Source: Streptosporangium sp. NBC_01756
Lineage (GTDB): Bacteria; Actinomycetota; Actinomycetes; Streptosporangiales; Streptosporangiaceae
Direction of reading: 5' to 3'
Length of the DNA: 64,000 nt
Assembly: GCF_035917975.1 (NCBI RefSeq)
Contig: NZ_CP109130.1
Location: 5,270,001 to 5,334,000, forward strand
Each line of letters begins with the position of its first letter. Position 1 is the first letter of the stretch. The position numbers were made by a program, and so were the translations under genes. Shown in pieces: positions 1,982 to 17,855 of the stretch. The notes beneath the pieces are model-generated. The model did not search any database and was not told the origin of the DNA. It saw nothing but the letters and a program-made list of their open reading frames with translations.

Positions 1982-3337
1982 TTGGGGCGCCTTTTCGGCA
2001 CCGACGGGGTACGTGGGGTCGCGGGGAGCGACCTCACGGCCGAGCTCGCCATGGACCTGTCCGTGGCCGCGGCTCATGTCCTCGGCGATGCCGGGGCGTT
2101 CAACGACGGCGGCGGGCGGCATGGCCGCCCGATCGCCGTCGTGGGCCGGGACCCGCGGGCTTCAGGAGAATTCCTGGAGGCCGCTGTGGTCGCCGGCCTT
2201 GCGTCGTCTGGCGTGGACGTCCTCCGGCTCGGCGTGCTGCCCACCCCGGCGGTCGCTTACCTCACCACCGCTCTCAGAGCCGACATGGGCGTGATGATCT
2301 CCGCCTCCCACAATCCCGCCCCGGACAACGGGATCAAGTTCCTCACCCGCGGCGGCTACAAGCTGCCCGACTCGGTGGAGAGCGAGATCGAGCAGCGGCT
2401 CGGCGAGAAGTGGCAGCGTCCTGTCGGCGCTTCGGTCGGCCGCGTGCGCGAAGCGTACGGCGAGACCGACCGTTATGTGTCCCATGTGCTGTCCACCGTG
2501 TCCAACGGCCTGGACGGCCTGAATGTGGTCCTTGACTGCGCCCACGGCGCCGCCCACCTGGTGGCGCCCGAGGCATTGCGGAGGGCGGGGGCGACGGTGG
2601 AGACGATCGGGGCCCGCCCCGACGGTCTCAACATCAACGCCGAGGTCGGATCCACCCACCTCGACAAGCTCCAGCAGATCGTCGTCTCGCGCAACGCGGA
2701 CGTCGGAATCGCCTATGACGGTGACGCCGACCGCTGCCTGGCGGTCTCGCACACCGGCGAGGTGGTCGACGGCGACCAGATCATGGCCGTGCTCGCCACG
2801 GCGATGCACGCCGAGGGAAGACTGGCGAAAGACACGGTGGTCGCCACCGTCATGTCCAACCTGGGCTTCAAGATCGGCATGAGGAACGCCGGCATCGACG
2901 TGGTCGAGACCGCGGTGGGCGACCGCTACGTGCTGGAGGCCATGAAGGCCGGCGGCTACAACCTCGGTGGTGAGCAGTCCGGTCATGTCCTCATGCTCGA
3001 CCATGCCACCACCGGAGACGGTCTGCTGACCTCGCTGCAGTTGCTGGCGGTCGTGGCGCGTGCGGGCCGGCCGCTGGCGGAGCTGGCGTCGGTGATGACC
3101 CGGATGCCGCAGATCCTGATCAACGTCAAGGGCGTGGACCGGGCGAAGGCGTCGGTTCCGGAGCTGTCGGTCGCGGTCGCGGCGGCGGAGGCGGAGCTCG
3201 GGGAGACCGGCCGGGTGCTGATCCGGCCGAGTGGCACCGAGCCGATGATCCGGGTCATGGTCGAGGCCACCTCTGCCGAGCAGGCCGAGCTGATGGCGGA
3301 CCGGCTGGCCGAGGTCGTCCGCAGGTCCTGCGTCTGA
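1982..3337 (+). CDS. glmM: Phosphoglucosamine mutase
   Basis: Interconverts glucosamine-6-phosphate and glucosamine-1-phosphate on the route to UDP-GlcNAc and peptidoglycan. It is 451 residues from a TTG at 1982, read [15 protein letters not shown], the standard N-terminus; this TTG is one base after the rpsI stop, so translation is probably coupled. The phosphoserine motif MISASHNP puts the active serine near residue 109. The Mg-binding loop AYDGDADRC and the C-terminal phosphate-binding [11 protein letters not shown] are both present. No good ribosome site precedes the TTG, which fits re-initiation after S9. glmS, the preceding pathway step, lies about 19 kb downstream. Confidence 0.96.
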
Positions 3338-3342
3338 AACGG

Positions 3343-3397
3343 CGACCGCCCTCCTCCTGCCCGCCGCGTGCCGGGCAAGGGGAGGGCGGTCGTCGTT
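3343..3397 (+). terminator. Rho-independent-type terminator after glmM
   Basis: A perfect 12-bp stem (CGACCGCCCTCC at 3343-3354 against GGAGGGCGGTCG at 3381-3392) directly follows the glmM stop, with only a short T-containing tail (TCGTT). It closes the rplM-rpsI-glmM unit. Confidence 0.75.
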
Positions 3398-3910
3398 CAT
3401 CAGTCGGTCAATGTTCGAGGTTGAGCCACCGGGCGCCGGTCGGACTCGCACCGCCGCTTTCCGGCCCGTAGGGTCGTGCCCATCGCAGCGGACCATCGCG
3501 AGCCGTGTCGTTCGAGCGGGTTGAGAGTGGATTGTCCCCGCTGCCGTGCCGACGATCCGGCCGCCATTGCCGGATGGCGCACGCCCGGAGAAGCGCATCA
3601 TTTGACGCCACGCCGGTAATCCCCCGTCATTGACACTTTGAGTAGTTGATCAGACACTCTGAGTTGTTGTTGTGGATCTTTCTTTCGGGGATGCCACCGG
3701 CGACCAGAAGCGGGCTTCCTCTCCGAGGATTCCGCTGACGGACAAGTATCGAGGGATCGGCGTCGCTTTCGTTCATCGCCGCCCCTGTCCCCGCCTACGG
3801 TTCAGCCGAGGTGACGGATCCACCGATGCCTGATTCCGTCATGGGCGGGCACATGACCTTTCCCGCCTGTCTGAGCCGTGCGGTGGCGTCGCCATGCTTT
3901 GGGGGCGGCG
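3398..3910 (+). promoter_or_regulatory. Gene-free interval upstream of the giant gene, with a tandem repeat
   Basis: No convincing gene in 3398-3910. Two near-identical 17-base direct repeats, GACACTTTGAGTAGTTG (3632-3648) and GACACTCTGAGTTGTTG (3653-3669), start 21 bases apart (15 of 17 identical), which would present the same DNA face on successive turns. A TTGACA at 3630-3635 overlaps the first copy. This interval must carry the promoter of the giant surface-protein gene; a possible -10 is TACGGT at 3796-3801, without a good -35. Operator function is an inference. Confidence 0.4.
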
Positions 3911-6900
3911 ATGAGCGGGGATGTTCGCGCGGGCTCGCGATCCGGTCGGCGCGGCCTGCGCGCGCCCGGCGCGATGATCATCATGTCCCGGTACCGGCGG
4001 CCGATCGCCCGGCTCCTCGTGCTGGCCCTGGCCGGTTCGGCGCTGACCGGCACGTCGACCGTACTGGCGCCGGCCGCCGAGTCGGCGATCGGCACGCTCC
4101 TGTTCGACCAGCCGTTCCACAACAACACGGCCAACGGGGAGGGCGCCGTGGTACTGCCCGCGCTGCCGGCCGGTGCGACCGGGACGAACGCGGCCTGCCT
4201 GACCGCTGTTGGCAACAACAGCACCGGCGTGCTGCGCAGTTGCCCCACCGACCGGGACAGTCAGGGCAACGGCAAGCTGCGTCTGACGAACGCGACGACC
4301 AATCAGGCGGGCGGCGTCTTCGGCGCGGTCAGCGTGCCCACCTCACAGGGCCTGGACGTGACGTTCAACAGCTACCAGTACGGCGGGGGCAACGCCGACG
4401 GCATGGCCTTCGTACTGGCGGCGGTCAACCCCGCCAATCCCCAGTCCCCGGCCAACATCGGCCAACTGGGCGGCGGACTGGGCTACACCTCGACCGGCAG
4501 CCTCCCCGGTCTGGCCTACGGCTACCTCGGCATCGGCCTCGACGTCTTCGGAAACTACAGCACCACCACCTACCAGGGGAGTGGCTGCACGAACCCGGCC
4601 TACATCGGCAGTGGAGGCGTCAAGGTCGCCGGACAGGTCGTCGTGCGCGGGCCGGGCAACGGCACCGTCGGCTACTGCGCGATCAACAGCACGGCGTCCT
4701 CGACGACATCCCCCGCCCTCCCGCTGCGGGCGACCACCCGTACGGCCGTCCCAGTCCAGGTCGGCGTCAACCCCACCGGCTCGATCCTCACCACCGCCGC
4801 CGGCCTGACGATTCCGCCCCACAGCTACCGGGCCGTGGTCACCCTGGTGGGCGGCGCGACGAGGACCCTGACGGGCACGCTTCCGGCGGTCTCCGCAGGT
4901 CTTTACCCGGCGAGCTGGCTGAACGCCGACGGGACTCCCAAACAGCTCGCGTTCGGCTGGGTTGGCTCCACCGGAGCCGTGACCGACTTCCACGAGCTCG
5001 ACAACGCCAAGGTGCTCACGATCAGCCCGGTCCCCGAGCTGACCGTCGCGCAGACCAGTTACAACGCCGCGACGCTGCAGCCGGGCGATCCGGTGACCTA
5101 CACCGTCGTCGCCGGGGTCGCCGCGGGCCTGAACGAGACCGCGCCGATCTCGATGACCCAGACGCTACCGGCCGGGACCGTGGCCGCGGGCGCGTACGGC
5201 ACGGGGTGGGTCTGCGCGGCGCCGTCCGGGCGGTCCATCACCTGCACCAACAGCAACGGCCCGTTCACGGCCGGGGCGACGTTACCGCCGATCACCGTGG
5301 TGGGCATCGTCACCGGGACCGGCGTCACGCCGTCGCTGGTCCAGACCACGACCGTGGCCACGTCGTCGTCCGCCGACGCCAATCCCGGCTACTCGTCGGC
5401 GACGACGGTGGGAACGCTGCCGGCGACGCCTGGCGGCATCACCTTGAGCTCGACCATCGGCCCGATCGCCGGCGGTAACCCGGTGACCGTGAGCGGCACG
5501 AACATCTCCACCGCGACCGCGATCGAGATCGGCACCACCGCCCAGCAGACCAGCGGCACCCCCGTCGTCCTGCTGCCCTGCGTCTCCGGAGCCACCAGCG
5601 GGTGCTTCACCAACAACGGCGACGGCACGCTGACCATCCCGTCCATGCCGGCCCGGGCCACCAGCGCGACGGTGAGTTTCACCGTTGTCACGCAGGGTCT
5701 CGCCTCGGCCGCCACCTACATCTACGCGTCCGCGCCGGCGGCGCCGGCCACCCCCACCGCCACGGCGGGAGTGACCAGCGCCACGGTGACCTGGACGGCG
5801 CCGAGCAGCAACGGCAGTGCCATCACCGGCTACGTGGTGACCCCCTACATCAGCGGCGTGGCCCAGACACCGGTGGTCTTCGACGCCTCGACCACCGTCC
5901 GGACGCTGACCGGGCTGACCACCGCCGTGCCGTACACCTTCACGGTGGCGGCGGTGAACGCCTTCGGCACCGGGTCGCCCAGTACGGCGTCCAACGCGGT
6001 CACCCCCTACGCCGTCCCGGGCAAGCCGGTCATTACCGCGGCGACCGCGGGATCCGCGTCCGCGCTGCTCACCTGGACGGCGCCGAGCAGCAACGGCAGT
6101 GCCATCACCAGCTATGTCGTGACGCCCTACATCGCCGGTGTCGCGCAGTCGACCCAGACCTTCGCCAGCGCCGCGACCACCCAGAGCGTCACCGGTCTCA
6201 CCCCGGGGACCGCGTACACGTTCACCGTCACCGCCCGCAACCTCGCGGGCGCGGGCCCGCCGTCCGACCCCTCCTCCGCCGTGGTCCCCAACACGCTGCC
6301 CACCTTCACCTTCGCCGCGCCGCCGGCCGGTGAGGTGGGGGCGCCCTACAGCGTCCCGCTGACCGTGACCGGCGGTACCACGCCGTACGTCTGGTCGGTC
6401 AGCACGGGCAGCCTGCCGCCTGGGCTGACCCTGAACGCCGCCACCGGTGTGCTGTCGGGCACCCCGACGACCGCGGGCAGCTATTCCTTCACCGCACGGG
6501 TGACGGACGCCAGCAGCGCGACCACCACTCGGGCGGTCACCCTGGTCATCGCACCGCCACCGGTGCTGACCTTCGCGGCGCCGCCCGGCGGGGAGGTGAG
6601 CATCCCCTACAGCGTCTCGCTGACCGTGAGCGGCGGCACCGCGCCGTACGTCTGGTCGATCACCGCCGGTAGCCTCCCGCCCGGCCTCACCCTGAACACC
6701 GCCACCGGGGTGCTGTCGGGCACCCCGACGGCTGGAGGCGTCTTCTCCTTCTCCGTCAAGGTGCTCGACGCCCAGAACCAGAGCGACACCAGAACGGTGA
6801 ACCTGACGATCGCGGCGCTGCCGACGTTCACCTTCAACCCGCCGCCGTCCGGGCAGGCCGGGGTCGCCTACAGCGTCCCGCTGACCGTCACCGGAGGCGT

Positions 6901-9900
6901 CGCGCCCTACACGTGGTCGCTCAGCGCGGGCAGCCTGCCGCCGGGGCTGACCCTGAACACCGCCACCGGCGTGCTGTCGGGCACCCCGACCACGACAGGC
7001 AGCTATCCGGTCACCTTCCGGGTGGTGGACGCGAACGGCCTGGCCGACACCCGGGCGGCGACGCTGGTCATCACGGTCGGCCCCCTGGTCATCACCAAGA
7101 CGGCCGACGCCTCCTCGGCGGCTCCGGGCGGCACGGTCGGCTACACGGTCACCGTGCGCAACACCGGGTCGAGCGCGTTCACCGGCGTGACGGTGAACGA
7201 CGCGCTGGCGGGTGTCCTCGACGACGCGACGTACAACGGTAATGCGAGCGCGACCGCCGGCTCGGTGTCCTTCGCCACTCAGACGGTGACCTGGACCGGA
7301 AACGTGGCGGCCGGCGCAGTCGTGACCATCACCTACTCGGTCACGGTGAACAGCCCGGACACCGGCAACAAGGTGCTGACCAACGTGGTGACCTCGCCGA
7401 CGGTCGGCAGCACCTGCCCGGCCGGCGGCACCGACCCCCGGTGCACCGCCACGGTGACCGTCTCCGGGCTGTCCATCGTCAAGGCGGCCGGTGTCTCGAC
7501 GGCGACCCCCGGCCAGACGATCGGCTACACCGTCACGGTGACGAACAACGGCCAGACCCCGTACACCGGCGCGACGTTCACCGACTCGTTCGCCGGTCTG
7601 CTCGACGACGCGACGTACAACGCCGACGCCGTCGCGACGAGCGGTAATTTGTCGTACACCAGCCCCGGCCTGACCTGGACCGGTGACCTGGCGGTCGGTG
7701 CGAGCGCGACCATCACCTACTCGGCCACGGTGCGCAATCCCGCCACCGGGAATCGGACCATCGCCAACACGATCTCCTCGGCCACTCCCGGCAGTACCTG
7801 CCCGCCGGGGAATCCCGGCACGGGGTGCACCGCCACGGTCACGGTGCTGGTCCCCGCCCTGGCGATCAGCAGCAGCGCGGACGTGACCACCACGACACCC
7901 GGCTCGGTGGTCAACTACACGGTGACGGCCTCCAACACCGGGCAGACAGCGTATGTCGGAGCGAGCTTCACCACCTCCCTGGTGGGCACGCTGGACGATG
8001 CGACGGGCAACGGCGACCTCTCCGCGACGTCAGGCACCCTGGTCAACAACCTGAACGGCACCTTCACCTGGACCGGCGACCTGGCCATCGGCGCGACGGT
8101 CACCATCACCGGTTCGGTCACGGTGAAAAATCCCGACAACGGGAGCCGGGTGCTGACGACCTCCATCACGTCCGCCACGCCGGGGAACACCTGCCCGGCG
8201 GGCAACCAGGCCCCCGCGTGCTTCACCACCGTCACCGTCCTGATCCCCGGCCTGACGATCACCAAGGCGGCCGACGCGTCGACCACGACACCCGGGTCGG
8301 TGGTGAACTACACGGTCGCGGTCACCAACTCAGGGCAGACGCCCTACACGGGGGCCACGTTCGCCGATGCGCTGACCGGGGTGCTGGACGACGCGACGTA
8401 CAACGCGGACGCCGCCGCGACCAGCGGCTCGGTCGGCTTCGCCGGCTCCACCCTGACCTGGGCCGGTGACCTGGCGGTCGGCGCGACCGCGACGGTCAGC
8501 TACTCGGTCACCGTCGCCGACCCCGGCACCGGGGACAAAACACTGACCAACACGGTCACCTCGGCCACCACCGGCAGCAACTGCCCGACCGGCAGCGGCG
8601 ACACCCGATGCGCCGACAGCGTGACCGTCCTCGTCCCGCAGTTGACGATAACCGACGAGACCGATGTGTCCACCACGGTCCCGGGCGGCGTCGTCACCTA
8701 CACGCTCACGCTGGCCAACACCGGGCAGACCGCCTACACGGGGATCAGCGCCGAGTTCACCATCGCGGGCTTCCTCGACGACGCTACCTACAACGGCGAC
8801 ATCGTGACCAGTTCGGGCAGCATCGATGTGACCCCGGAAGGCGCGCTCCTGTGGACGGGGGACATCGCGGTCGGCGCGACGGTCACCATCGTCGGTTCGG
8901 TCACCGTCAACGACCCCGACACCGGGGACAAGACCCTGAGCACCTCCATCACGTCCGCCGCGCCCGGCAGCAGTTGCCCGGTCGTCGGCGCGACGGCGCC
9001 CGGCTGCTTCTCCGTCGTCACCGTCCTGGTCCCCGAGCTGACCCTGGAAATCACCGCCGACACCTTGACCGCCACGCCGGGCAGCACCGTCACCTACACG
9101 GTCACGGCCACCAACACCGGGGAGACCGCCTACACGGGCGCCCAGGTGACCGACCTGCTGGCCGAGGTCATCAACGACGCGGCCTACAACGGTGACGCGA
9201 CGGCGACGTCCGGCAGCGTGTCGTACACCAGCCCCAACCTGACCTGGACCGGTGACCTGGCGGTCGACGCGAGTGCGACGATCACCTACTCGGTCACCGT
9301 GAACGACCCCGCCCTCGGCGACAAGCGGATGACCAACACGTTGGTGTCGAGCACGCCCGGCAGCATCTGCCCGTCCGGGAGCACCGACACCCGCTGCACC
9401 GCGGTGGTGGACATCCTCGTGCCGGGGTTGACCGTGGCCAAGAGCGCGAACGCCACGACGACGACGCCGGGGGCGACCGTCGGCTACACGCTCACCGTCA
9501 CCAACGCGGGGCAGACGCCGTACACCGGCGCCACCGTCACCGACGCGCTGGCCGGGGTGCTGGACGACGCGGTCTACAACGGTGACGCGGCGGCGACGTC
9601 CGGCGGTGTGTCGTACACCAGTCCCACGCTGACCTGGACCGGTGACCTGGCGGTCGGGGCGAGCGCGACGATCACCTACACGGTCACCGTGAACAACCCC
9701 GACGCCGGCAACGCCCTGCTCACGAACACCGCCGTCTCGACCGCGACGGGGAGCAACTGCCAGAGCGGAAGCACCGACACCCGCTGCACCGTCTCCGTGC
9801 CGGTGGCGCGGCTGGTCATCGACCAGAGTTATACCGCGAGCACCGCGACACCGGGTTCGACGATCACTCTCAACGCCACGTTCACCAACACCGGCAATGT

Positions 9901-12900
9901 TCCCTACACCGGAATCACCATCTCCAGCCTCAGCGCCGGCACCATCGACGACGCCATTCCCAACGGGGACCAGACCGCCAGTTCGGGCACGCTCGTGCTC
10001 AGCGCCACGGCCATCACCTGGACCGGGAACATCCCCGTCGGGGGCGTCATCACGGTCACCGGCACCCTGACCGTGAAGAACCCCGACCCCGGGGACAAGA
10101 TCATCACCGGCACCCTGGTCTCGACCGCTCCCGGCAACAACTGCCCGTCCGGCGGCTCCGACCCCCGTTGCACGGCTCGGCTCGACGTGACCGTCCCCGG
10201 CCTGACGATCATCCAGACCGCCGACACCCCCGTCACAGTCCAGGGGGGCACCGTCGGATACACGGTCGTCGTCACCAACTCGGGACAGGCTCCGTACACC
10301 GGCGCGACGTTCACCAATGCCCTGGCGGGCCTGCTGGACGACGCGGTCTACAACGGCGACGCGACGGCGACGACCGGCACGGTCGGCTTCGCCGGGTCCA
10401 GCCTGACCTGGACCGGGAACCTGGCGGTCGGCGCGAGCGCCACGATCGCCTACACGGTCACGGTGCGCAACCCCGACCCCGGGGACAAGCTGCTGTCCGC
10501 CACCATCTCCTCTCCGACCACCGGCAGCAACTGTGCCCCGGCGAGCGGTAACACGCAGTGCACCAGCAACGTGATCGTGCTCGTCCCGGCGCTGACCATC
10601 ACCAAGACCGCCAGCCTTACGACGGCGGTGCCGGGGAGCCTGATCACCTACACGGTCACCGCCGTCAACACCGGCCAGCTCCCCTACACGGGGGCGACGT
10701 TCACCGACGCGCTGGCCGGGGTGCTGGACGACGCGGTCTACAACGGGGACGCGGCGGCGACGTCCGGCACAGTCGGCTTCGCCGGGTCCGATCTGACCTG
10801 GACCGGGGATCTCGCGCCCGGCGCAAGCACAACCGTCACCTACACGGCCACCGTCGACAATCCGGCGACCGGCGACCTGAGCCTGCAGAACGCGATCACC
10901 TCCACCACCTCGGGGAACAACTGCCCGTCCGGTGGGACGGACCCCCGCTGCAGCAACAGCATCCCGATCACGGATGCCACCACACTGACGTTCGACAAGG
11001 TCGCGAGCATCCCCTCGGTCGCGCAGGGCGAGACGGTCACCTACACCGTCACGATCAGCAACAGCGGGCTGACACCGTACGTCGACGCGACGTTCACCGA
11101 CTCCCTCACCGGCGTGCTGGACGACGCCACCTACAACAACGACGCCGCGGCCGGCACAGGAGACGTCACCTACACCGAACCCGAGCTGACCTGGACCGGG
11201 ACCGTCCCGGCCGAGGGGTCGACCACAGTTACCTACTCGGTGACAGCGAACACGCCGGACGTCGGCGACGGGATTCTCCCCAACATCTTGGTATCGGACT
11301 CGGCAGGCGGCAACTGTGCTACGGCGAGCACCGACCCACGCTGCACCACCGTGGTGACCCTGGCGCGCCTGGCCATCGTGAACACGTCCGACTCGCCGAC
11401 CTACCTCCCCGGCGAGGTGGTGCACTACACCACGGTGATGACCAACACGGGGCAGACACCGTACACCGGGATCAGCGTCCTGTTCGCCGGGACCGGCGGC
11501 GTCGACGACACCGTCCCCAACGGGGATCAGAGCGCCACCTCCGGGTTGTTGTCACTGGGCCTCGACGGGCTCACCTGGACCGGTAGCATCCCCGTCGGTG
11601 GGAGTGTCACGCTGACCGGCAGCGTCACGGTGAACAACCCCGACCTGGGCGACAGGGTGATCCCCCTCACCTCGGTCTCCACGGCGCAGGGCAGTCCCTG
11701 CCTGGTAGAGACCGACCCTGGGTGCACCCTCACCGTCACCGTGCTGATCCCCGAACTGGCGGTCACCAAGGTCGCAGACCGGACGGCGGTGGTTCCGGGA
11801 GGCGCGGTGGCCTACACGGTCACGATCGCCAACACCGGGGAGGCCCCTTACACCGGCGCAACCGTGACCGACGATCTGGCGGGCGTGCTGAACGAGGCGA
11901 CCTACAACGGTGACGTGGCGGCGACGAGCGGCACAGCCGGCGTCACCGGCACCACGCTGACCTGGACCGGCGACCTGGCGGTGGACGAGACAGCGACCGT
12001 CTCCTACTCCGTCACCGCCGGCAGCGCCGGCACCGGCGGCAAGCTGCTGAGCAACGTGGTCTCGTCCACCGAGGCGGGCAGCACCTGCCCGCCCGCCAGC
12101 GGGAACACGGCGTGCTCCGCGAAGGTCGTCATCCTCACCCCGATCCTGACGATCGTCAAGACATCCAGCGCCGCGTCGACCACGCCCGGTGGGACGGTCA
12201 CCTACACGGTGACCGCCACCAACACCGGCCAGGTCCCGTTCGCCGCGGCGAACTTCACCGACGCGCTGGCCGGGGTGCTGGACGACGCCGCCTACAACGG
12301 CGACGTGTCCGCCACCCGCGGCACCGCCACCTTCGGCAGTCAGGCGGTGAGCTGGAGCGGCGCCCTCAACCCGGGCCAGGCCGCCGTCATCACCTACAGC
12401 GTCACAGTCGCCACTCCGGGCACCGGCGACCAACGGCTGATCAACACCGTCACCTCCACCACCTCGGGCACCACCTGCCCGGTCGGCGGGACCGACTCCC
12501 GGTGCGCCAAGGAGGTCCCGGTCGCCAGGATCACCATCACGAATGTGACGGGCGTCAGCACGGCCATCCCGACCGGGGTGGTCGGCTACACGATCACGGT
12601 CACGAACACCGGGCAGGTGCCGTACACCAGCGTCGTCCTGAACGGCCTGCTCGCCGCGGTCCTGGACGACGCGACCCCCAACGGCGACGGAGTGGTCTCG
12701 GCAGGCAGCTTCACCCTCGTCCCGGAGAACGCCGCAGTGCGGTGGGTGCTTCCCCTCGCGGTCGGCGCCACCGCCACCGCCACCTTCTCGGTCACAGTGC
12801 GCAACCCCGATCCGGGTAACAAGACCATGAGAGCCGTCGTCACCTCGGACGCGCCGGGGAACAACTGCCCCGTCGGGAGCACCGACCCGACCTGCGTCTC

Positions 12901-15658
12901 GACCGTGACCGTACTGACCCCCGCGCTGACCCTCACCAAGAGCGCGGACAAGACCACGGTCACCCCCGGGGGAACCATCACCTACACGATCGACGTCACC
13001 AACTCCGGCCAGAACCCGTACACCGGGGCGACGGTGACCGATTCGCTGGCGAGGGTGCTCACGGATGCCACGTACAACGGCGATGCGTCCGCCACGAGCG
13101 GCACGGTCACGGTCGTCGGGTCCACCCTGACCTGGGTCGGCGACCTGGCGGTCGACGCGGATGCGACGATCACCTTCTCGGTCACCGTGCTCGATCCCGA
13201 CCCCGGTGACAAGCTGATCGTCAACAGCGTCTTCTCCGATGCGCTGGGCAGCACCTGCCCGTCCACCGGGACCTTCCCGGCATGCACGACGCTCGTCACG
13301 GTGCTCGTCCCCGCGCTGACCGTCACCAACGTCGCGGACACCGTCACCACCACCCCGGGCTCCACGGTCGGTTACACGGTCACGATCGTGAACACCGGCC
13401 AGACCCCGTACACCGGGGCGACGGTCACCGACGCGCTGGCCGGGATACTGGACGACGCCGTCTACAACGCCAACGCCACCGCGACGAACGGCAACGTGTC
13501 CTACACCAGTCCCACGCTGACCTGGACCGGTGACCTGGCGGTCGGCGCGAGCGCGACGATCACCTACACGGTCACCGTGCGCAACCCCGACACCGGGAAC
13601 AAGACCATGACCGGCGTGGTCGCCTCGTCCGCACCGGGCAGCACCTGCCCGGTGGGCGGTGGCGGCGGCTCTGCCTGCACCTCGACGGTGACCGTCCTGA
13701 TCCCCGCGCTGGCCGTCTCCGTCGCTGCGGACACGGCGACCACGACCCCCGGTGCCACCGTGCGGTTCACCGTCACGATTGCGAACTCCGGTCAGACCCC
13801 GTACAGCGGGGCGACCGTCACGGACGCACTGGCCGCGGTGCTGGACGACTCGACCTACGACGGCAACGCGGTCGCGGGCACCGGCACCGTCGTGCTGGCG
13901 GACTCCACCCTGACCTGGACCGGTGACCTGGCGGCCGGTGCGAGCACGACCGTCACCTACACGGTGAAGGTCAACGACCCCAGCGCCGGTGACAAGGCCA
14001 TGACCAATGTCGTCGCCTCGTCCGTGCCGGGCAGCACGTGCCCGGTGGGTGGCACCGCCCCGGCGTGCACCGCGACCGTCACCGTCCTGATCCCAGCCCT
14101 GAGCATCACCCAGAGCGCCAATGTGGCGACCATCACCCCCGGTGGCACGGTCGTCTACACGGTCGCGCTCACCAACACCGGGCAGACGGACTACGCCGCG
14201 GCCACCGTCGTCTCCGCGCTCGACGGGCTGTTCCCGGACGTGGTCTACAACGGTGACGCGACCGCGAGCACCGGCACCCTCGACTACACGGCGCCGAAGC
14301 TGACCTGGATCGGCGCCCTGGCGATCGGCGCGAGCGCCACGATCACCTATTCCGTCACGGTGAAGGATCCCGACCCCGGTGACAAGGCCCTGACCAGCAG
14401 CGTGACCTCGCTCACCCCGGGCAGCACCTGCCCGGCGGGCGGCACCGACCCGGCGTGCGCGACGCTCGTGCGGGTCCTGGTGCCGCAGCTCACGATCACG
14501 CAGACCGCCGACACCGGCACCGTCGTCGCCGGGAACGCCGTGCACTACACGGTGACGCTGACCAACACCGGCGAGACCGACTACACCGGCGCCGCGTTCA
14601 CCGAGTCGCTGGCCGGGGTGCTCGACGACGCCACCTACGACGGCGACGCGACCGCCAGCACCGGCACCGCCACCTACACCGACGGCGTCCTCGCCTGGAG
14701 CGGCAACCTCGCGATCGGCGCCACCTCGACGGTCACCTACTCGGTCACCACCATCTATCCTCCGCCGGGGAACAAGACCTTGACCGGCACCGTCGTCTCC
14801 ACCACTCCCGGGACGACCTGCCCTGCCGGGGGGACCGACCCCGGCTGCACCACGACCGTCACCGTCCTGGTCCCCGGCCTCGCCATCACCAAGACCGCCG
14901 ACAACAGCGGGGACGTGGTCGCCGGCGGCGTCGTCCAGTACACGATCGTGGCCACCAACACCGGTGAGGCCCCGTACGCCGCGGCCACGTTCACCGACGT
15001 GCTGACCGGAGTGCTCGACGACGCGACCTACAACGACGACGCGACCGCCACGGTCGGCACCGTCGGTCGCGTCGGCGACCTGCTGACCTGGACCGGGTCA
15101 CTGCCGATGCAGGCGAGCGCGGTCGTCACCTTCTCCGTCACCACCAGTAAGGAGGCGTCCCCCGGAGACGGAGTCCTCGACAACCAGGTCACCTCGGCGA
15201 CGACGGGTAGCACCTGTCCCACCGGCGGCACCGACCCCGGTTGCTCGGTCCTGACCGACGTGGCTGCCGTGAGCATCAACCTCACCGACCTGACCAGTGC
15301 TTTCACCCTGAGCGGGCCTCCGGATTCGACCGTCCGGAGCAACGGAGCGGTGACCATGACGGTCACCACGAACAACCTCGACGGTTACGCCGTCACCGTC
15401 CAGGCGGCGTCTGCCGAGCTCACCCCGGCTCAGCCCGGCAACACCGCCACCATCCCGGTCGGGAACCTGCAGGTGCGCGAGAGCGGCACGTCGGTCTTCC
15501 GGCCCATCTCGTCCGACGCCCCGCTGCTCATCCACGAACAGCCTGGCCCGTCCGCTCTCAACGGGGACGCCATCGTCAACGACTTCGAGGCCTATATCCC
15601 CTTCGTCCCGGCCGACGACTACTCGGGGACGCTCACCTACATCGCGACGGCCAAGTGA
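3911..15658 (+). CDS. Giant exported repeat protein: lectin-like head, TIG-like, FN3, putative-Ig and 21 DUF11-type modules
   Basis: About 3,915 residues. A signal peptide (basic MSRYRRPIARLL run, hydrophobic core, cleavage near the AAESA stretch, about residue 58) leads into a Gly/Asn-rich L-type-lectin-like domain (about 61-375). Next come a DUF11-like segment, a TIG-like domain (about 507-607), two fibronectin type III domains (about 607-797; both carry WTAPSSNGSAIT), three putative-Ig domains (about 797-1056; GSLPPGLTLN and GVLSGTP motifs), 21 DUF11-type repeats (about 1058-3783), and a C-terminal beta-rich domain. There is no LPXTG motif, membrane anchor or basic tail at the end, so it is secreted or held by a partner. 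The start is uncertain: ATG 3911 has a GGGGGCGG stretch 5 bases upstream; GTG 3878, ATG 3974 and ATG 3983 are alternatives. A role as an adhesive or stalk-like surface fibre is inferred. Confidence 0.85.
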   Translation: MSGDVRAGSRSGRRGLRAPGAMIIMSRYRRPIARLLVLALAGSALTGTSTVLAPAAESAIGTLLFDQPFHNNTANGEGAVVLPALPAGATGTNAACLTAVGNNSTGVLRSCPTDRDSQGNGKLRLTNATTNQAGGVFGAVSVPTSQGLDVTFNSYQYGGGNADGMAFVLAAVNPANPQSPANIGQLGGGLGYTSTGSLPGLAYGYLGIGLDVFGNYSTTTYQGSGCTNPAYIGSGGVKVAGQVVVRGPGNGTVGYCAINSTASSTTSPALPLRATTRTAVPVQVGVNPTGSILTTAAGLTIPPHSYRAVVTLVGGATRTLTGTLPAVSAGLYPASWLNADGTPKQLAFGWVGSTGAVTDFHELDNAKVLTISPVPELTVAQTSYNAATLQPGDPVTYTVVAGVAAGLNETAPISMTQTLPAGTVAAGAYGTGWVCAAPSGRSITCTNSNGPFTAGATLPPITVVGIVTGTGVTPSLVQTTTVATSSSADANPGYSSATTVGTLPATPGGITLSSTIGPIAGGNPVTVSGTNISTATAIEIGTTAQQTSGTPVVLLPCVSGATSGCFTNNGDGTLTIPSMPARATSATVSFTVVTQGLASAATYIYASAPAAPATPTATAGVTSATVTWTAPSSNGSAITGYVVTPYISGVAQTPVVFDASTTVRTLTGLTTAVPYTFTVAAVNAFGTGSPSTASNAVTPYAVPGKPVITAATAGSASALLTWTAPSSNGSAITSYVVTPYIAGVAQSTQTFASAATTQSVTGLTPGTAYTFTVTARNLAGAGPPSDPSSAVVPNTLPTFTFAAPPAGEVGAPYSVPLTVTGGTTPYVWSVSTGSLPPGLTLNAATGVLSGTPTTAGSYSFTARVTDASSATTTRAVTLVIAPPPVLTFAAPPGGEVSIPYSVSLTVSGGTAPYVWSITAGSLPPGLTLNTATGVLSGTPTAGGVFSFSVKVLDAQNQSDTRTVNLTIAALPTFTFNPPPSGQAGVAYSVPLTVTGGVAPYTWSLSAGSLPPGLTLNTATGVLSGTPTTTGSYPVTFRVVDANGLADTRAATLVITVGPLVITKTADASSAAPGGTVGYTVTVRNTGSSAFTGVTVNDALAGVLDDATYNGNASATAGSVSFATQTVTWTGNVAAGAVVTITYSVTVNSPDTGNKVLTNVVTSPTVGSTCPAGGTDPRCTATVTVSGLSIVKAAGVSTATPGQTIGYTVTVTNNGQTPYTGATFTDSFAGLLDDATYNADAVATSGNLSYTSPGLTWTGDLAVGASATITYSATVRNPATGNRTIANTISSATPGSTCPPGNPGTGCTATVTVLVPALAISSSADVTTTTPGSVVNYTVTASNTGQTAYVGASFTTSLVGTLDDATGNGDLSATSGTLVNNLNGTFTWTGDLAIGATVTITGSVTVKNPDNGSRVLTTSITSATPGNTCPAGNQAPACFTTVTVLIPGLTITKAADASTTTPGSVVNYTVAVTNSGQTPYTGATFADALTGVLDDATYNADAAATSGSVGFAGSTLTWAGDLAVGATATVSYSVTVADPGTGDKTLTNTVTSATTGSNCPTGSGDTRCADSVTVLVPQLTITDETDVSTTVPGGVVTYTLTLANTGQTAYTGISAEFTIAGFLDDATYNGDIVTSSGSIDVTPEGALLWTGDIAVGATVTIVGSVTVNDPDTGDKTLSTSITSAAPGSSCPVVGATAPGCFSVVTVLVPELTLEITADTLTATPGSTVTYTVTATNTGETAYTGAQVTDLLAEVINDAAYNGDATATSGSVSYTSPNLTWTGDLAVDASATITYSVTVNDPALGDKRMTNTLVSSTPGSICPSGSTDTRCTAVVDILVPGLTVAKSANATTTTPGATVGYTLTVTNAGQTPYTGATVTDALAGVLDDAVYNGDAAATSGGVSYTSPTLTWTGDLAVGASATITYTVTVNNPDAGNALLTNTAVSTATGSNCQSGSTDTRCTVSVPVARLVIDQSYTASTATPGSTITLNATFTNTGNVPYTGITISSLSAGTIDDAIPNGDQTASSGTLVLSATAITWTGNIPVGGVITVTGTLTVKNPDPGDKIITGTLVSTAPGNNCPSGGSDPRCTARLDVTVPGLTIIQTADTPVTVQGGTVGYTVVVTNSGQAPYTGATFTNALAGLLDDAVYNGDATATTGTVGFAGSSLTWTGNLAVGASATIAYTVTVRNPDPGDKLLSATISSPTTGSNCAPASGNTQCTSNVIVLVPALTITKTASLTTAVPGSLITYTVTAVNTGQLPYTGATFTDALAGVLDDAVYNGDAAATSGTVGFAGSDLTWTGDLAPGASTTVTYTATVDNPATGDLSLQNAITSTTSGNNCPSGGTDPRCSNSIPITDATTLTFDKVASIPSVAQGETVTYTVTISNSGLTPYVDATFTDSLTGVLDDATYNNDAAAGTGDVTYTEPELTWTGTVPAEGSTTVTYSVTANTPDVGDGILPNILVSDSAGGNCATASTDPRCTTVVTLARLAIVNTSDSPTYLPGEVVHYTTVMTNTGQTPYTGISVLFAGTGGVDDTVPNGDQSATSGLLSLGLDGLTWTGSIPVGGSVTLTGSVTVNNPDLGDRVIPLTSVSTAQGSPCLVETDPGCTLTVTVLIPELAVTKVADRTAVVPGGAVAYTVTIANTGEAPYTGATVTDDLAGVLNEATYNGDVAATSGTAGVTGTTLTWTGDLAVDETATVSYSVTAGSAGTGGKLLSNVVSSTEAGSTCPPASGNTACSAKVVILTPILTIVKTSSAASTTPGGTVTYTVTATNTGQVPFAAANFTDALAGVLDDAAYNGDVSATRGTATFGSQAVSWSGALNPGQAAVITYSVTVATPGTGDQRLINTVTSTTSGTTCPVGGTDSRCAKEVPVARITITNVTGVSTAIPTGVVGYTITVTNTGQVPYTSVVLNGLLAAVLDDATPNGDGVVSAGSFTLVPENAAVRWVLPLAVGATATATFSVTVRNPDPGNKTMRAVVTSDAPGNNCPVGSTDPTCVSTVTVLTPALTLTKSADKTTVTPGGTITYTIDVTNSGQNPYTGATVTDSLARVLTDATYNGDASATSGTVTVVGSTLTWVGDLAVDADATITFSVTVLDPDPGDKLIVNSVFSDALGSTCPSTGTFPACTTLVTVLVPALTVTNVADTVTTTPGSTVGYTVTIVNTGQTPYTGATVTDALAGILDDAVYNANATATNGNVSYTSPTLTWTGDLAVGASATITYTVTVRNPDTGNKTMTGVVASSAPGSTCPVGGGGGSACTSTVTVLIPALAVSVAADTATTTPGATVRFTVTIANSGQTPYSGATVTDALAAVLDDSTYDGNAVAGTGTVVLADSTLTWTGDLAAGASTTVTYTVKVNDPSAGDKAMTNVVASSVPGSTCPVGGTAPACTATVTVLIPALSITQSANVATITPGGTVVYTVALTNTGQTDYAAATVVSALDGLFPDVVYNGDATASTGTLDYTAPKLTWIGALAIGASATITYSVTVKDPDPGDKALTSSVTSLTPGSTCPAGGTDPACATLVRVLVPQLTITQTADTGTVVAGNAVHYTVTLTNTGETDYTGAAFTESLAGVLDDATYDGDATASTGTATYTDGVLAWSGNLAIGATSTVTYSVTTIYPPPGNKTLTGTVVSTTPGTTCPAGGTDPGCTTTVTVLVPGLAITKTADNSGDVVAGGVVQYTIVATNTGEAPYAAATFTDVLTGVLDDATYNDDATATVGTVGRVGDLLTWTGSLPMQASAVVTFSVTTSKEASPGDGVLDNQVTSATTGSTCPTGGTDPGCSVLTDVAAVSINLTDLTSAFTLSGPPDSTVRSNGAVTMTVTTNNLDGYAVTVQAASAELTPAQPGNTATIPVGNLQVRESGTSVFRPISSDAPLLIHEQPGPSALNGDAIVNDFEAYIPFVPADDYSGTLTYIATAK
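7084..15260 (+). repeat. Array of 21 tandem DUF11-type coding repeats
   Basis: Each unit is about 390 bases (130 residues). A typical unit reads LTITKTAD..TTPG..V.YTVT..NTGQTPYTGATFTD, then LAGVLDDATYNGDA, LTWTGDLAVGA, an ITYSVTV strand and a closing segment with two cysteines (TCP...DPRCT) that could form a disulphide. I count 21 units by their opening LxITxxAD-type strands. Similarity is high enough at the DNA level to leave long open frames on the opposite strand. Most units have the ITYSVTV form; units 3, 5, 8 and 12 carry TITGSVTV-type strands instead, so the array is a mosaic of at least two subtypes. Confidence 0.9.
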
Positions 15659-15747
15659 CGCGCCGCCGTTCCGGACGGGACCTCGGCAGGTCGTCGAGCA
15701 CGTCTCACCGCATTCACCTGACAAACGAACGATGTGAAGGAGAAGTC

Positions 15748-16497
15748 ATGGCAGAGATCCACCCCCGCACCGCAACGCGGCGCACCGCCACTCTCTGCGG
15801 ACTCGGTGCGTTCCTGGCCGTCACCCTCGCCACGCTCTCACCGGCGGCGGCCGTACTCAAGCCGCACCCGGAGGACGACGACAGGAAGGCGTCCGCGCTC
15901 ACCTCACATGGGGACAGCGACAAGGACAGAGACAGGGACAGGGACAAGGACAAGGACAAGAAGGCACCCGTCGCCGCCGCTCCCAAGCTGAGCATCAGTG
16001 TCGACAACGGCCGGACCGCCGCGCAGGAAGGGGACCGGCTCACCTACACCGTCACCGTCAACAACATCGGCACGGACAAGGCGCACGGGCTCGACCTCAC
16101 CCAGAGTCTGCCGACCGGCCTGCACTTCGTCTCGGCCGACGGCCATGGTACGGCGGCGAAGGGCCAGGTCCACTGGACCGTCGACGTGCCCGCGGGCAAG
16201 AAGGCGACCTTCCACACCACCGCCGAGGTGCGGGCCACGCCGGAGGACCTCCTGCGCCTGGCCACCGTCGCCTGCGCGAGCACCAAGGGGGACGACAAGC
16301 CGCTCGTCTGCGCCACCCACTCCGACCAACTGCCGGCCGGGGCGGCCGCCGCCGAGGCCGCCCGTGCGGCCGCCGATCCCGCCAGCCGGCTGTGGTACGC
16401 GGTGGCGGTGGCGGGCCTGCTGGCCCTGGTGCTGGCCGGGATGCTGTTCCTCCGCCGTTCCAGGCGTCGCGCCGGAGCACGGCGGTCGTCCTCGTAA
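15748..16497 (+). CDS. Membrane-anchored single-DUF11 protein, partner of the giant protein
   Basis: 249 residues from an ATG with GAAGGAG at 15736-15742. It has a signal peptide (ending near SPAAA), an Asp/Lys/Arg alternating linker encoded by a hexanucleotide repeat, one DUF11-like domain (LSISVDNGRTAAQEGDRLTY onward) and a C-terminal helix (LWYAVAVAGLLALVLAGMLF) followed by an arginine-rich tail. LPAGA lies 17 residues before the helix, so a non-canonical sortase signal is conceivable, but a plain membrane anchor fits equally well. It lies 89 bases after the giant gene on the same strand and shares its main domain, so it may tether or cap the giant fibre (inference). Confidence 0.78.
   Translation: MAEIHPRTATRRTATLCGLGAFLAVTLATLSPAAAVLKPHPEDDDRKASALTSHGDSDKDRDRDRDKDKDKKAPVAAAPKLSISVDNGRTAAQEGDRLTYTVTVNNIGTDKAHGLDLTQSLPTGLHFVSADGHGTAAKGQVHWTVDVPAGKKATFHTTAEVRATPEDLLRLATVACASTKGDDKPLVCATHSDQLPAGAAAAEAARAAADPASRLWYAVAVAGLLALVLAGMLFLRRSRRRAGARRSSS
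15913..15960 (+). repeat. In-frame hexanucleotide repeat (GACARG)
   Basis: Eight tandem hexamers of the type GACAAG/GACAGG encode the Asp-Lys/Asp-Arg linker of the anchored DUF11 protein. Slippage by whole units would change linker length without breaking the frame. Confidence 0.75.
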
Positions 16498-16509
16498 CAG
16501 CTCGGCGCA

Positions 16510-16543
16510 ACGGGGTACGGCACTCCCGCAGGCCGTACCCCGT
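16510..16543. terminator. Bidirectional hairpin between convergent genes
   Basis: ACGGGGTACGGC (16510-16521) and GCCGTACCCCGT (16532-16543) form a perfect 12-bp stem with a 10-base loop. It lies between the DUF11 partner gene and the opposing AraC-type regulator and can serve both. Confidence 0.7.
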
Positions 16544-16546
16544 CGT

Positions 16547-16963
16547 TCAGGAGGAGGCGGGTTTCGATCCTCCGTTCCTGACCGGTCGCGTGTGGATCTT
16601 GGCGACGCAGGCCGGGACGGCGGCGCCCTCGTCATGGCGGCGGGCCCGGTACGAGCTGGGGCTCTCGCCGACCAGCTCGGTGAACCGCGAGCTGAACGTC
16701 CCCAGCGACGCGCAGCCGACCGTGAAGCAGACCTCCGTCACCGTCAGGTCGCCCCGCCGCAGCAGCGCCTTGGCCCGCTCGATGCGGCGCGTCATCAGGT
16801 AGCTGTACGGCGTCTCCCCGAAGGCGGCGCGAAAGCTGCGGGAGAAGTGGCCCGGCGACATGAGGGCGACGCGCGCCAGCGCCGGAACGTCGAGCGGCTT
16901 CGCGTAGTCGCGGTCCATCAGGTCACGGGCCCGGCGCAACCGGACGAGGTCCTCCAACGTCAC
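16547..16963 (-). CDS. AraC/XylS-type transcriptional regulator, DNA-binding domain only
   Basis: 138 residues, essentially just the two-helix-turn-helix AraC domain: DVPALARVALMSPGHFSRSFR for the first HTH and the conserved TVTEVCFTVGCASLGTFSSR for the second, ending with the SPSSYR motif. There is no N-terminal ligand-binding domain, so it is either a stand-alone regulator or relies on its short C-terminal tail, which has one Cys. It is transcribed away from the ABC cluster upstream of it. Its target is unknown. Confidence 0.88.
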   Translation of the reverse strand: MTLEDLVRLRRARDLMDRDYAKPLDVPALARVALMSPGHFSRSFRAAFGETPYSYLMTRRIERAKALLRRGDLTVTEVCFTVGCASLGTFSSRFTELVGESPSSYRARRHDEGAAVPACVAKIHTRPVRNGGSKPASS

Positions 16964-17039
16964 CCGACCACCATCCCACAGCGCCGGACGCCGCCCGCGT
17001 CGGCCCAGTGCCCAGTGCCCAGTGCAGGCTCAAGACCTA

Positions 17040-17068
17040 GGCGACCGGCCCAGTGCAGGCCGGTCGCC
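17040..17068 (-). terminator. Second hairpin downstream of the ABC operon
   Basis: GGCGACCGGCC (17040-17050) and GGCCGGTCGCC (17058-17068) make a perfect 11-bp stem with loop CAGTGCA. Just beside it, 17003-17024 holds three copies of a 7-base CCCAGTG unit, and CAGTG recurs in the hairpin loop. Confidence 0.55.
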
Positions 17069-17105
17069 CTGGCTGCTCGACGGCGCAGCGCGCCGAGGAA
17101 CCGTG

Positions 17106-17137
17106 CATGTGCGCCCCCGCAGATGGGGGCGCACATG
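17106..17137 (-). terminator. Hairpin terminator directly after the ABC permease stop
   Basis: CATGTGCGCCCCC (17106-17118) and GGGGGCGCACATG (17125-17137) form a perfect 13-bp stem with a 6-base loop, one base past the stop codon of the last gene of the minus-strand ABC cluster. Confidence 0.75.
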
Positions 17138-17138
17138 G

Positions 17139-17855
17139 TCACTCGTCGCCGGTGAGGGAGAAGCTCCGCAGCCGCTGCCCCGCCCAGACGACCGCGCCGG
17201 CGGTGACGACGACCAGGGCGGGTACGGCGAAGCCGAGGGCGATCTCGGTGGACAGGAACGGCGAGGACGACAGCTGGTCGGCGACCGACTGGGCCCACTG
17301 CTGGATGGAGAACTTACGGGCTCCGGGGACGAAGTTGCCGACCACGCCCTCCCAGAGGAGCGCGTAGACGATGCCGACGGTGACCGCGTGCCGGGTCAGG
17401 ATGCCCAGCAGCATGAACACCGCCGCGTAGGCGACACCGCCGATCAGGGCGCCGAGGGCGAAGCCGTACGCGATTCCGGACTGGAGACCGACCAGCAGGT
17501 AGGCCGCGACGAAGGTCGGCACGGCGGCGAACAGCGCGAGGATCGAGGCGGCGACCAGGAACTTGGTCCGCGCGATGACCGGGCGGGAGATCGGTTTGGC
17601 CAGCATGTGGATGATGGTTCCGTCGTCGATCTCGGGGGCGATCACGCCGGTCCCCGCGATCATGCCCAGCAGCGGCAGCATGGTGCCGACGGCGAAGGTC
17701 TGCAGGAGCGTGACGGCGGCGCTCTCACCTCCGCCGCCGACCACACGCAGCAGCAGGGCCAGCCCGATCAGCACCAGCGGCAGAATGATCAGCAGCCAGA
17801 TCCGCCGGCGGCCGAGCAGCGCCCGATAGGAGATTCCGGCGATGACACCGTTCAT
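17139..17855 (-). CDS. ABC-2 type transporter permease
   Basis: 238 residues with about six hydrophobic segments (for example RIWLLIILPLVLIGLALLLR near residue 18), the layout of an ABC-2 exporter permease. The cytoplasmic stretch IAPEIDDGTIIHMLAKPISR after the second segment is typical of this group. The ATPase gene ends two bases upstream, so the two form a transporter. The substrate cannot be read from the sequence. Confidence 0.88.
   Translation of the reverse strand: MNGVIAGISYRALLGRRRIWLLIILPLVLIGLALLLRVVGGGGESAAVTLLQTFAVGTMLPLLGMIAGTGVIAPEIDDGTIIHMLAKPISRPVIARTKFLVAASILALFAAVPTFVAAYLLVGLQSGIAYGFALGALIGGVAYAAVFMLLGILTRHAVTVGIVYALLWEGVVGNFVPGARKFSIQQWAQSVADQLSSSPFLSTEIALGFAVPALVVVTAGAVVWAGQRLRSFSLTGDE

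Follow-up and report, generated by a model that had tools for sequence, protein, structure and literature searches.

A giant protein of Streptosporangium with a lectin-like head and its candidate membrane partners, with likenesses to the WxL cluster

The subject of this analysis is a giant gene and the small gene that follows it in a stretch of 64,000 nucleotides from Streptosporangium sp. NBC_01756 (NZ_CP109130.1, positions 5,270,001 to 5,334,000; hereafter the window). The giant is probably a lectin-tipped adhesin of fixed length whose C-terminal domain (CTD) docks on membrane-anchored partners built of immunoglobulin (Ig)-like domains, and on the best reading the system works like the WxL cluster of Firmicutes, yet is no WxL member by motif. 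In other genera the giant mostly belongs to a four-gene cluster whose first gene, for a membrane protein with two Ig domains, is a distant homologue of WxLIP, the WxL-interacting protein. The CTD is a domain in its own right, which in relatives is also secreted as a free small protein.

The giant protein and its C-terminal domain

The open reading frame of the giant (3878-15658, forward strand) comprises 3,926 codons and yields 3,915 residues from the start at 3911, which confirms the coordinates and length given in an earlier note on this DNA, or about 3,891 residues from position 3983, where a signal-peptide-like segment begins. Signal peptides and helices are called throughout from sequence and hydropathy. 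The domain order is signal peptide, L-type-lectin-like head, two fn3 domains, three Ig-like units that all carry the motif LPPGLTLN.ATGVLSGTPT, 21 DUF11/DUF7927 repeats and the CTD. With Pfam matches to DUF7927 (E 8.3e-301, 20 stretches), DUF11 (E 7.1e-159) and fn3 (E 7.9e-21, two stretches), the repeat architecture is not a product of chance, and the lectin-like head, Ig/FN3-like folds and 21 DUF11-type modules of the earlier note are borne out by Pfam, for the head only below the curated cut-off, by the Ig motif and by a repeat hidden Markov model (HMM). Six full-length Streptosporangium orthologues match the giant along its whole length, with 3,878-3,888 residues aligned at 64-75% identity and 3-13 window residues gapped, and in the three orthologues compared by codon the third position varies modestly more than the first and second. 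The head shares the motif ADG..F and a motif of LD type with a terminal GN with the other members of an alignment of eight sequences (A2), finds a single weak match by sequence in the PDB (E 0.013), and would serve as a glycan binder.

The repeat HMM, built from the giant itself, finds exactly 21 units between residues 1035 and 3764. Within the protein the repeats share a mean identity of 50% (best pair 68%); repeats at equal positions in the window and S. carneum giants share a mean of 63%, and 17 of the 21 window repeats have their best S. carneum match in the repeat of the same position. The count is 21 in all eight intact Streptosporangium giants and 15 in all 17 intact giants of other genera, with no intermediate value among these 25. 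It omits giants that are broken or cut by a contig end (L054, L057, L059, L063, L136) as well as that of Micromonospora L077, which has 21 repeats, yet is cut at its upstream edge. Such constancy is rare for a repeat protein and may be the sign of a selected reach.

The giant carries no anchor of its own. Its last 60 residues contain neither a hydrophobic stretch (best 19-residue mean 0.56) nor a sortase-like motif, LPYTG and LANTG are confined to repeat interiors, and a helix or sortase motif is found at the C-terminus of none of 29 giants (of 30, the fragmented L063 being omitted). Sortase anchoring is rejected on this absence, and the earlier observation that the protein lacks an LPXTG motif or membrane anchor thus extends from the window to all 29 C-termini. 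The terminal CTD has invariant positions at Tyr45-x-Val47 and Tyr129, and its structure model (pLDDT 94.5) is similar to filament and pilin subunits, including those of TasA/TapA fibres and chaperone-usher pili. Solved WxL chains are absent among the 50 structure matches listed for it, which excludes nothing, and by sequence it has no PDB match below E 0.26. Assignment of the CTD to DUF11 is rejected, as profile comparison finds no link to that family, nor to the product of the adjoining small gene.

Partner genes in relatives and at the window locus

The small gene directly behind the giant encodes a protein, here DUF11-TM, with a signal-peptide-like start, one DUF11 domain (E 1.4e-15), a helix near residues 217-235 and a basic tail, in agreement with the earlier description of a neighbour with one DUF11 domain and a membrane helix. 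The same two-gene layout, sought in relatives as that note proposed, recurs in 29 of the 30 giants that have sequence past their 3' end. Only one giant departs from this: genome G014 has two in tandem (L055 and L056, 21 repeats each), where one DUF11-TM lies between the two, just upstream of the second, and none was found after it. Because own anchors are absent (0/29) and adjacency holds (29/30), the loci fetched include no self-anchored homologue and no pattern in which the small gene is never adjacent. An LPAGA segment of DUF11-TM is not favoured as a sortase site, since it ends some 17 residues ahead of the helix window and the Herbidospora small partners lack it.

In other genera the genes lie mostly on one strand in the order WxLIP-like gene (open frames of 311-357 residues), giant, secreted CTD-only gene (175-210 residues) and DUF11-TM. 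The WxLIP-like gene is directly upstream of the giant in all 18 testable loci (L077 and L136 are cut there), and the CTD-only gene stands between giant and DUF11-TM in 17 of 20; L063, which is fragmented, lacks it, as do Micromonospora L077 and Frankia L078. Among Streptosporangium giant loci the CTD-only gene is found in none of ten, the window included, and the WxLIP-like gene in one of eight (S. carneum). Searches of the remaining Streptosporangium loci with nine WxLIP-like queries (tblastn) reveal remnants of one common segment immediately ahead of the giant, which are clear in L060 (E 1e-7), L059 (1e-6) and L062 (2e-4) and weak in L055 (0.002); none that is credible was found in L053, L054 or L061. 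The window remnant is weak alone, and its protein segment and place match the stronger remnants of three relatives. From these remnants and the missing genes, the cluster seems to have been dispersed in Streptosporangium.

As the CTD is a separate domain and a WxLIP-like protein belongs to the cluster, DUF11-TM becomes one of two candidate anchors; as it is the remaining partner at the window locus, the two-part tether there would be the local variant of a more elaborate system. The earlier proposal of a secreted fibre and its tether is partly supported, as regards the unanchored giant and the adjoining DUF11-TM, and did not foresee the CTD and the WxLIP-like protein.

CTD-only genes also occur away from giants; in this family ten lie on contigs long enough to read, and each is followed immediately by a WxLIP-like gene. 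An eleventh pair, from another actinobacterial family (G492), was recognized by inspection together with a weak match to PF06030, and a twelfth place (L127 of G046) is cut by a contig end and retains a WxLIP-like fragment; this 3.9-kb contig holds two CTD-only-like genes and an opposite-strand frame of 621 codons whose end is CTD-like. Of 341 genomes in the family, 31, in seven of 68 genera, match the CTD profile (A4), as do four of 396 genomes in a phylum-even sample, including the window's own, with two of the four near threshold. A scan of named genomes gave 14 loci, in Streptosporangium (4), Herbidospora (6), Sphaerisporangium (2), Micromonospora (1) and Frankia (1).

The model of the WxLIP-like protein is about equally similar to pilus chaperones and to solved WxLIP. 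PF06030 matches WxLIP-like genes at E 0.046-2.4 in 10 of 12 genomes, and the set has no sequence match in the PDB at E <= 1. In six loci (L119, L122, L126, L138, L139, L140) a glycosyltransferase-like gene of about 635-655 residues, recognized by eye, follows the WxLIP-like gene, a hint that a glycan may be a partner. One WxLIP-like gene is kept in the window genome, at L137:4314-5258, an orphan with no CTD neighbour, whose 3' end overlaps an opposite-strand open frame that presumably encodes a geosmin synthase-like protein.

A related pairing involves small WxL-like proteins. At L161 of the window genome (about 1.573 Mb; 3167-3718 and 3729-4769 as oriented), a small protein with D-x-R-G followed by a Trp motif, and with no Pfam WxL match, adjoins a WxLIP-like gene that matches PF06030 at E 0.02; more than 91% of this kind is reported from Firmicutes (PMC9772566). 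Some of the Streptosporangiaceae WxL-like small proteins have D-x-R-G and the Trp motif; one of the four scanned matches Pfam WxL at E 1.5e-4, below the cut-off, and the set has no WxL match by sequence in the PDB. Two large frames that match Pfam WxL weakly, at L154 (G047; 1,092 codons, E 0.025) and L152 (G131; 839 codons, E 0.125), directly precede WxLIP genes that exceed the Pfam cut-off.

The window comes from a genome assembled as a single contig of 9.0 Mb. Genes for L13, S9 and a glmM-like product lie upstream of the giant and a glmS-like gene about 6 kb downstream, and a gene with an AraC-type helix-turn-helix (16547-16963, reverse strand) converges with DUF11-TM, after which ABC transporter genes follow. 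A promoter and terminator scan of 15500-17200 found nothing on the forward strand and two weak terminator-like sites on the reverse strand.

Table 1. Features of the giant locus in window coordinates
Feature	Position	Strand	Basis or remark
Possible WxLIP-like remnant	3772..3867	+	tblastn, 47% over 32 residues, E 0.014, best of 9 queries
Giant lectin/DUF7927 protein	3983..15658	+	Alternative starts 3974, 3911, 3878
Signal-peptide-like N-terminus of giant	3983..4087	+	Judged from sequence
L-type-lectin-like head	4091..5041	+	PF18483 E 1.9e-6, below cut-off; alignment A2
fn3, better-scoring of two stretches	6035..6280	+	PF00041 E 7.9e-21
Three Ig-like units, about 87 residues each	6290..7084 (approximate boundaries)	+	Motif at residues 811, 898, 985
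21 tandem DUF11/DUF7927 repeats, about 130 residues each	7085..15274	+	Pfam, repeat HMM
CTD, 134 residues	15254..15655	+	Alignments A1, A4; first few residues shared with repeat 21
DUF11-TM, 249 residues	15748-16497	+	AAGGAG ahead (clear ribosome-binding site); 89 bp after giant
DUF11 domain of DUF11-TM	15988..16293	+	Pfam
LPAGA segment of DUF11-TM	16330..16344	+	Invariant in 9 Streptosporangium small partners (A3)
Transmembrane helix of DUF11-TM, basic tail after	16396..16452	+	Hydropathy

The docking model and its alternatives

In the mechanism proposed here, the giant would be exported by the general secretion route, and its CTD, as a docking module with a WxL-type or pilin-like beta-sandwich, would be captured at the cell by membrane-held Ig-domain partners encoded beside it, namely the WxLIP-like protein and DUF11-TM in other genera and DUF11-TM alone at the window locus. 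Docking would keep the fibre on the cell, and the stalk, of 21 repeats here and mostly 15 in other genera, would hold the lectin-type head at a defined distance. In outline this is also the published model of the WxL cluster.

A number of results weigh against this reading. The CTD matches no Pfam family at E <= 10 (two giant CTDs and one CTD-only protein searched), and the 23 CTD sequences of alignment A4 contain no Trp and hence no Trp-x-Leu motifs; failing both the motif and the Pfam test, the CTD is not classed here as a WxL domain, and the five matches of Pfam WxL (PF13731) in the genomes include none on a CTD. Profile comparison of the CTD with actinobacterial WxL-like proteins was not significant with a first alignment (score 18.6, control 19.2), and a second, deeper alignment raised the link only to a moderate level (Prob 68.8, E 4.5e-5; score 34.8 against no more than 21.2 in five controls). 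On the WxLIP-like proteins PF06030 (DUF916) gives E 0.15 and 0.32 in two of nine, below the cut-off, DUF3324 is found in none of the nine, other Ig families match about as weakly as PF06030, and at E <= 10 PF06030 also matches in nine of 14 control genomes. The head reaches 28.3 bits with Pfam L-type lectin PF18483, for which the curated cut-off is 78.3. Eight loci contain a distant DUF11-TM relative and neither giant nor CTD nor head close by. The search of the window genome for a CTD-only gene, in which 12 of 67 first-look candidates were scored, found none, and the orphan WxLIP-like gene lies at about 6.91 Mb, 1.6 Mb from the giant.

The resemblance of the CTD model to subunits of TasA/TapA fibres and chaperone-usher pili, and of the WxLIP-like model to chaperones, brings in a donor-strand system, which is possible, if on the unlikely side. 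The CTD would be a domain of pilin type whose groove is open, the WxLIP-like protein a tethered, strand-lending chaperone of the PapD/TapA kind and the giant a FimH-like tip adhesin; as part of the same proposal, the CTD-only protein would polymerise or cap through its conserved N-terminal extension. An actinomycete lectin-tipped appendage assembled by donor-strand complementation, with pilin-type CTDs, a PapD-like membrane chaperone of the WxLIP class, a FimH-type giant and a stalk of ruler-like length (15 or 21 repeats), is the boldest statement of this idea and a rather doubtful one. Direct binding of the CTD to peptidoglycan or another wall polymer, with the membrane partners aiding only secretion or folding, is comparably doubtful: such binding has been argued for WxL domains (PMC9772566, PMC10599100, in the parts consulted); against it, the analysis identified no wall-binding residues in the CTD.

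The constant presence of DUF11-TM beside the giant, already described, would also fit a tether in which DUF11-TM alone binds it, perhaps by DUF11-DUF7927 contacts, with the CTD merely the last domain of the stalk, all the more as DUF11-TM is the only partner seen at nine of ten Streptosporangium giant loci (L057 being cut upstream and L056 having it upstream). This is nevertheless improbable, given that the CTD has no profile link to DUF11-TM and that in relatives it is a separate gene, paired with a WxLIP-like gene where no giant is present in 11 of 11 complete loci. Least probable is release of the giant as a matrix or sheath protein, which the lack of an anchor in all 29 C-termini would permit and the conserved membrane-anchored partners adjoining it argue against.

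Relation to known systems and significance

The Csc/WxL cluster, as described in the parts of the sources consulted, comprises CscA (a WxLIP), CscB (a small WxL protein), CscC (a large WxL protein) and CscD (a short LPxTG protein), with ConA- or legume-lectin-like heads on some CscC and a CscD that is very small and anchored (PMC1534035). The WxL domain stands at the end of the large WxL proteins, and WxLIP is predicted to complete the sandwich of this domain with an inserted strand (PMC9772566; PMC10599100). Both systems thus combine a two-Ig membrane protein, a large protein, a small domain-only protein and a small anchored protein (PMC1534035, PMC9772566, PMC10599100), and in the loci of relatives the WxLIP homologue is likewise clustered and the large and small proteins share a C-terminal domain. 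The earlier statement that no described system has this layout was accordingly too strong, as the Firmicutes clusters share it (PMC1534035, PMC10599100). In contrast to Csc/WxL, the actinobacterial CTD has no W-x-L motifs or Pfam WxL match, the giants measure about 3,000 or 3,900 residues against about 500-1000, the stalk consists of 15 or 21 DUF7927 units, DUF11-TM stands where Csc has an LPxTG peptide, and two of the four cluster genes are left at the window locus.

Fibrillar adhesins with DUF11 stalks are similar in their length and repetitive Ig-like stalk, DUF11 being among the listed stalk domains, and their N-terminal adhesive domain would correspond to the lectin-like head (PMC9210967, in part). 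They differ in that the giant has no anchor of its own (0/29), so that its retention would have to come from partners. The Streptosporangiaceae pairs of WxL-like and WxLIP-like proteins, L161 included, follow the same two-gene logic, whereas their WxL-like members form a separate subfamily with the moderate profile link to the CTD given above.

The layout and the first gene are like those of Csc/WxL. As far as the literature searches show, the size of the giant, the stalk of 15 or 21 repeats, DUF11-TM as a partner, and the actinobacterial four-gene form and its break-up are new, as is the fold link suggested by the models, of WxLIP with pilus chaperones and of its client with filament subunits. 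No description of the giant itself was found in the open-access literature searched; "WxL" and "donor strand" were found together there in one paper, with a single mention of each. No paper was found on TLP-1, which is known only from the title of its PDB entry.

The CTD and WxLIP-like pair provides a defined case in which to examine whether WxLIP proteins act as tethered donor-strand chaperones. A donor-strand appendage, if real, would bring WxL clusters under one mechanism with TasA fibres and chaperone-usher pili. If the docking reading is true, the WxL/Csc principle would reach into the actinomycetes, there with a giant adhesin of quantised stalk length.
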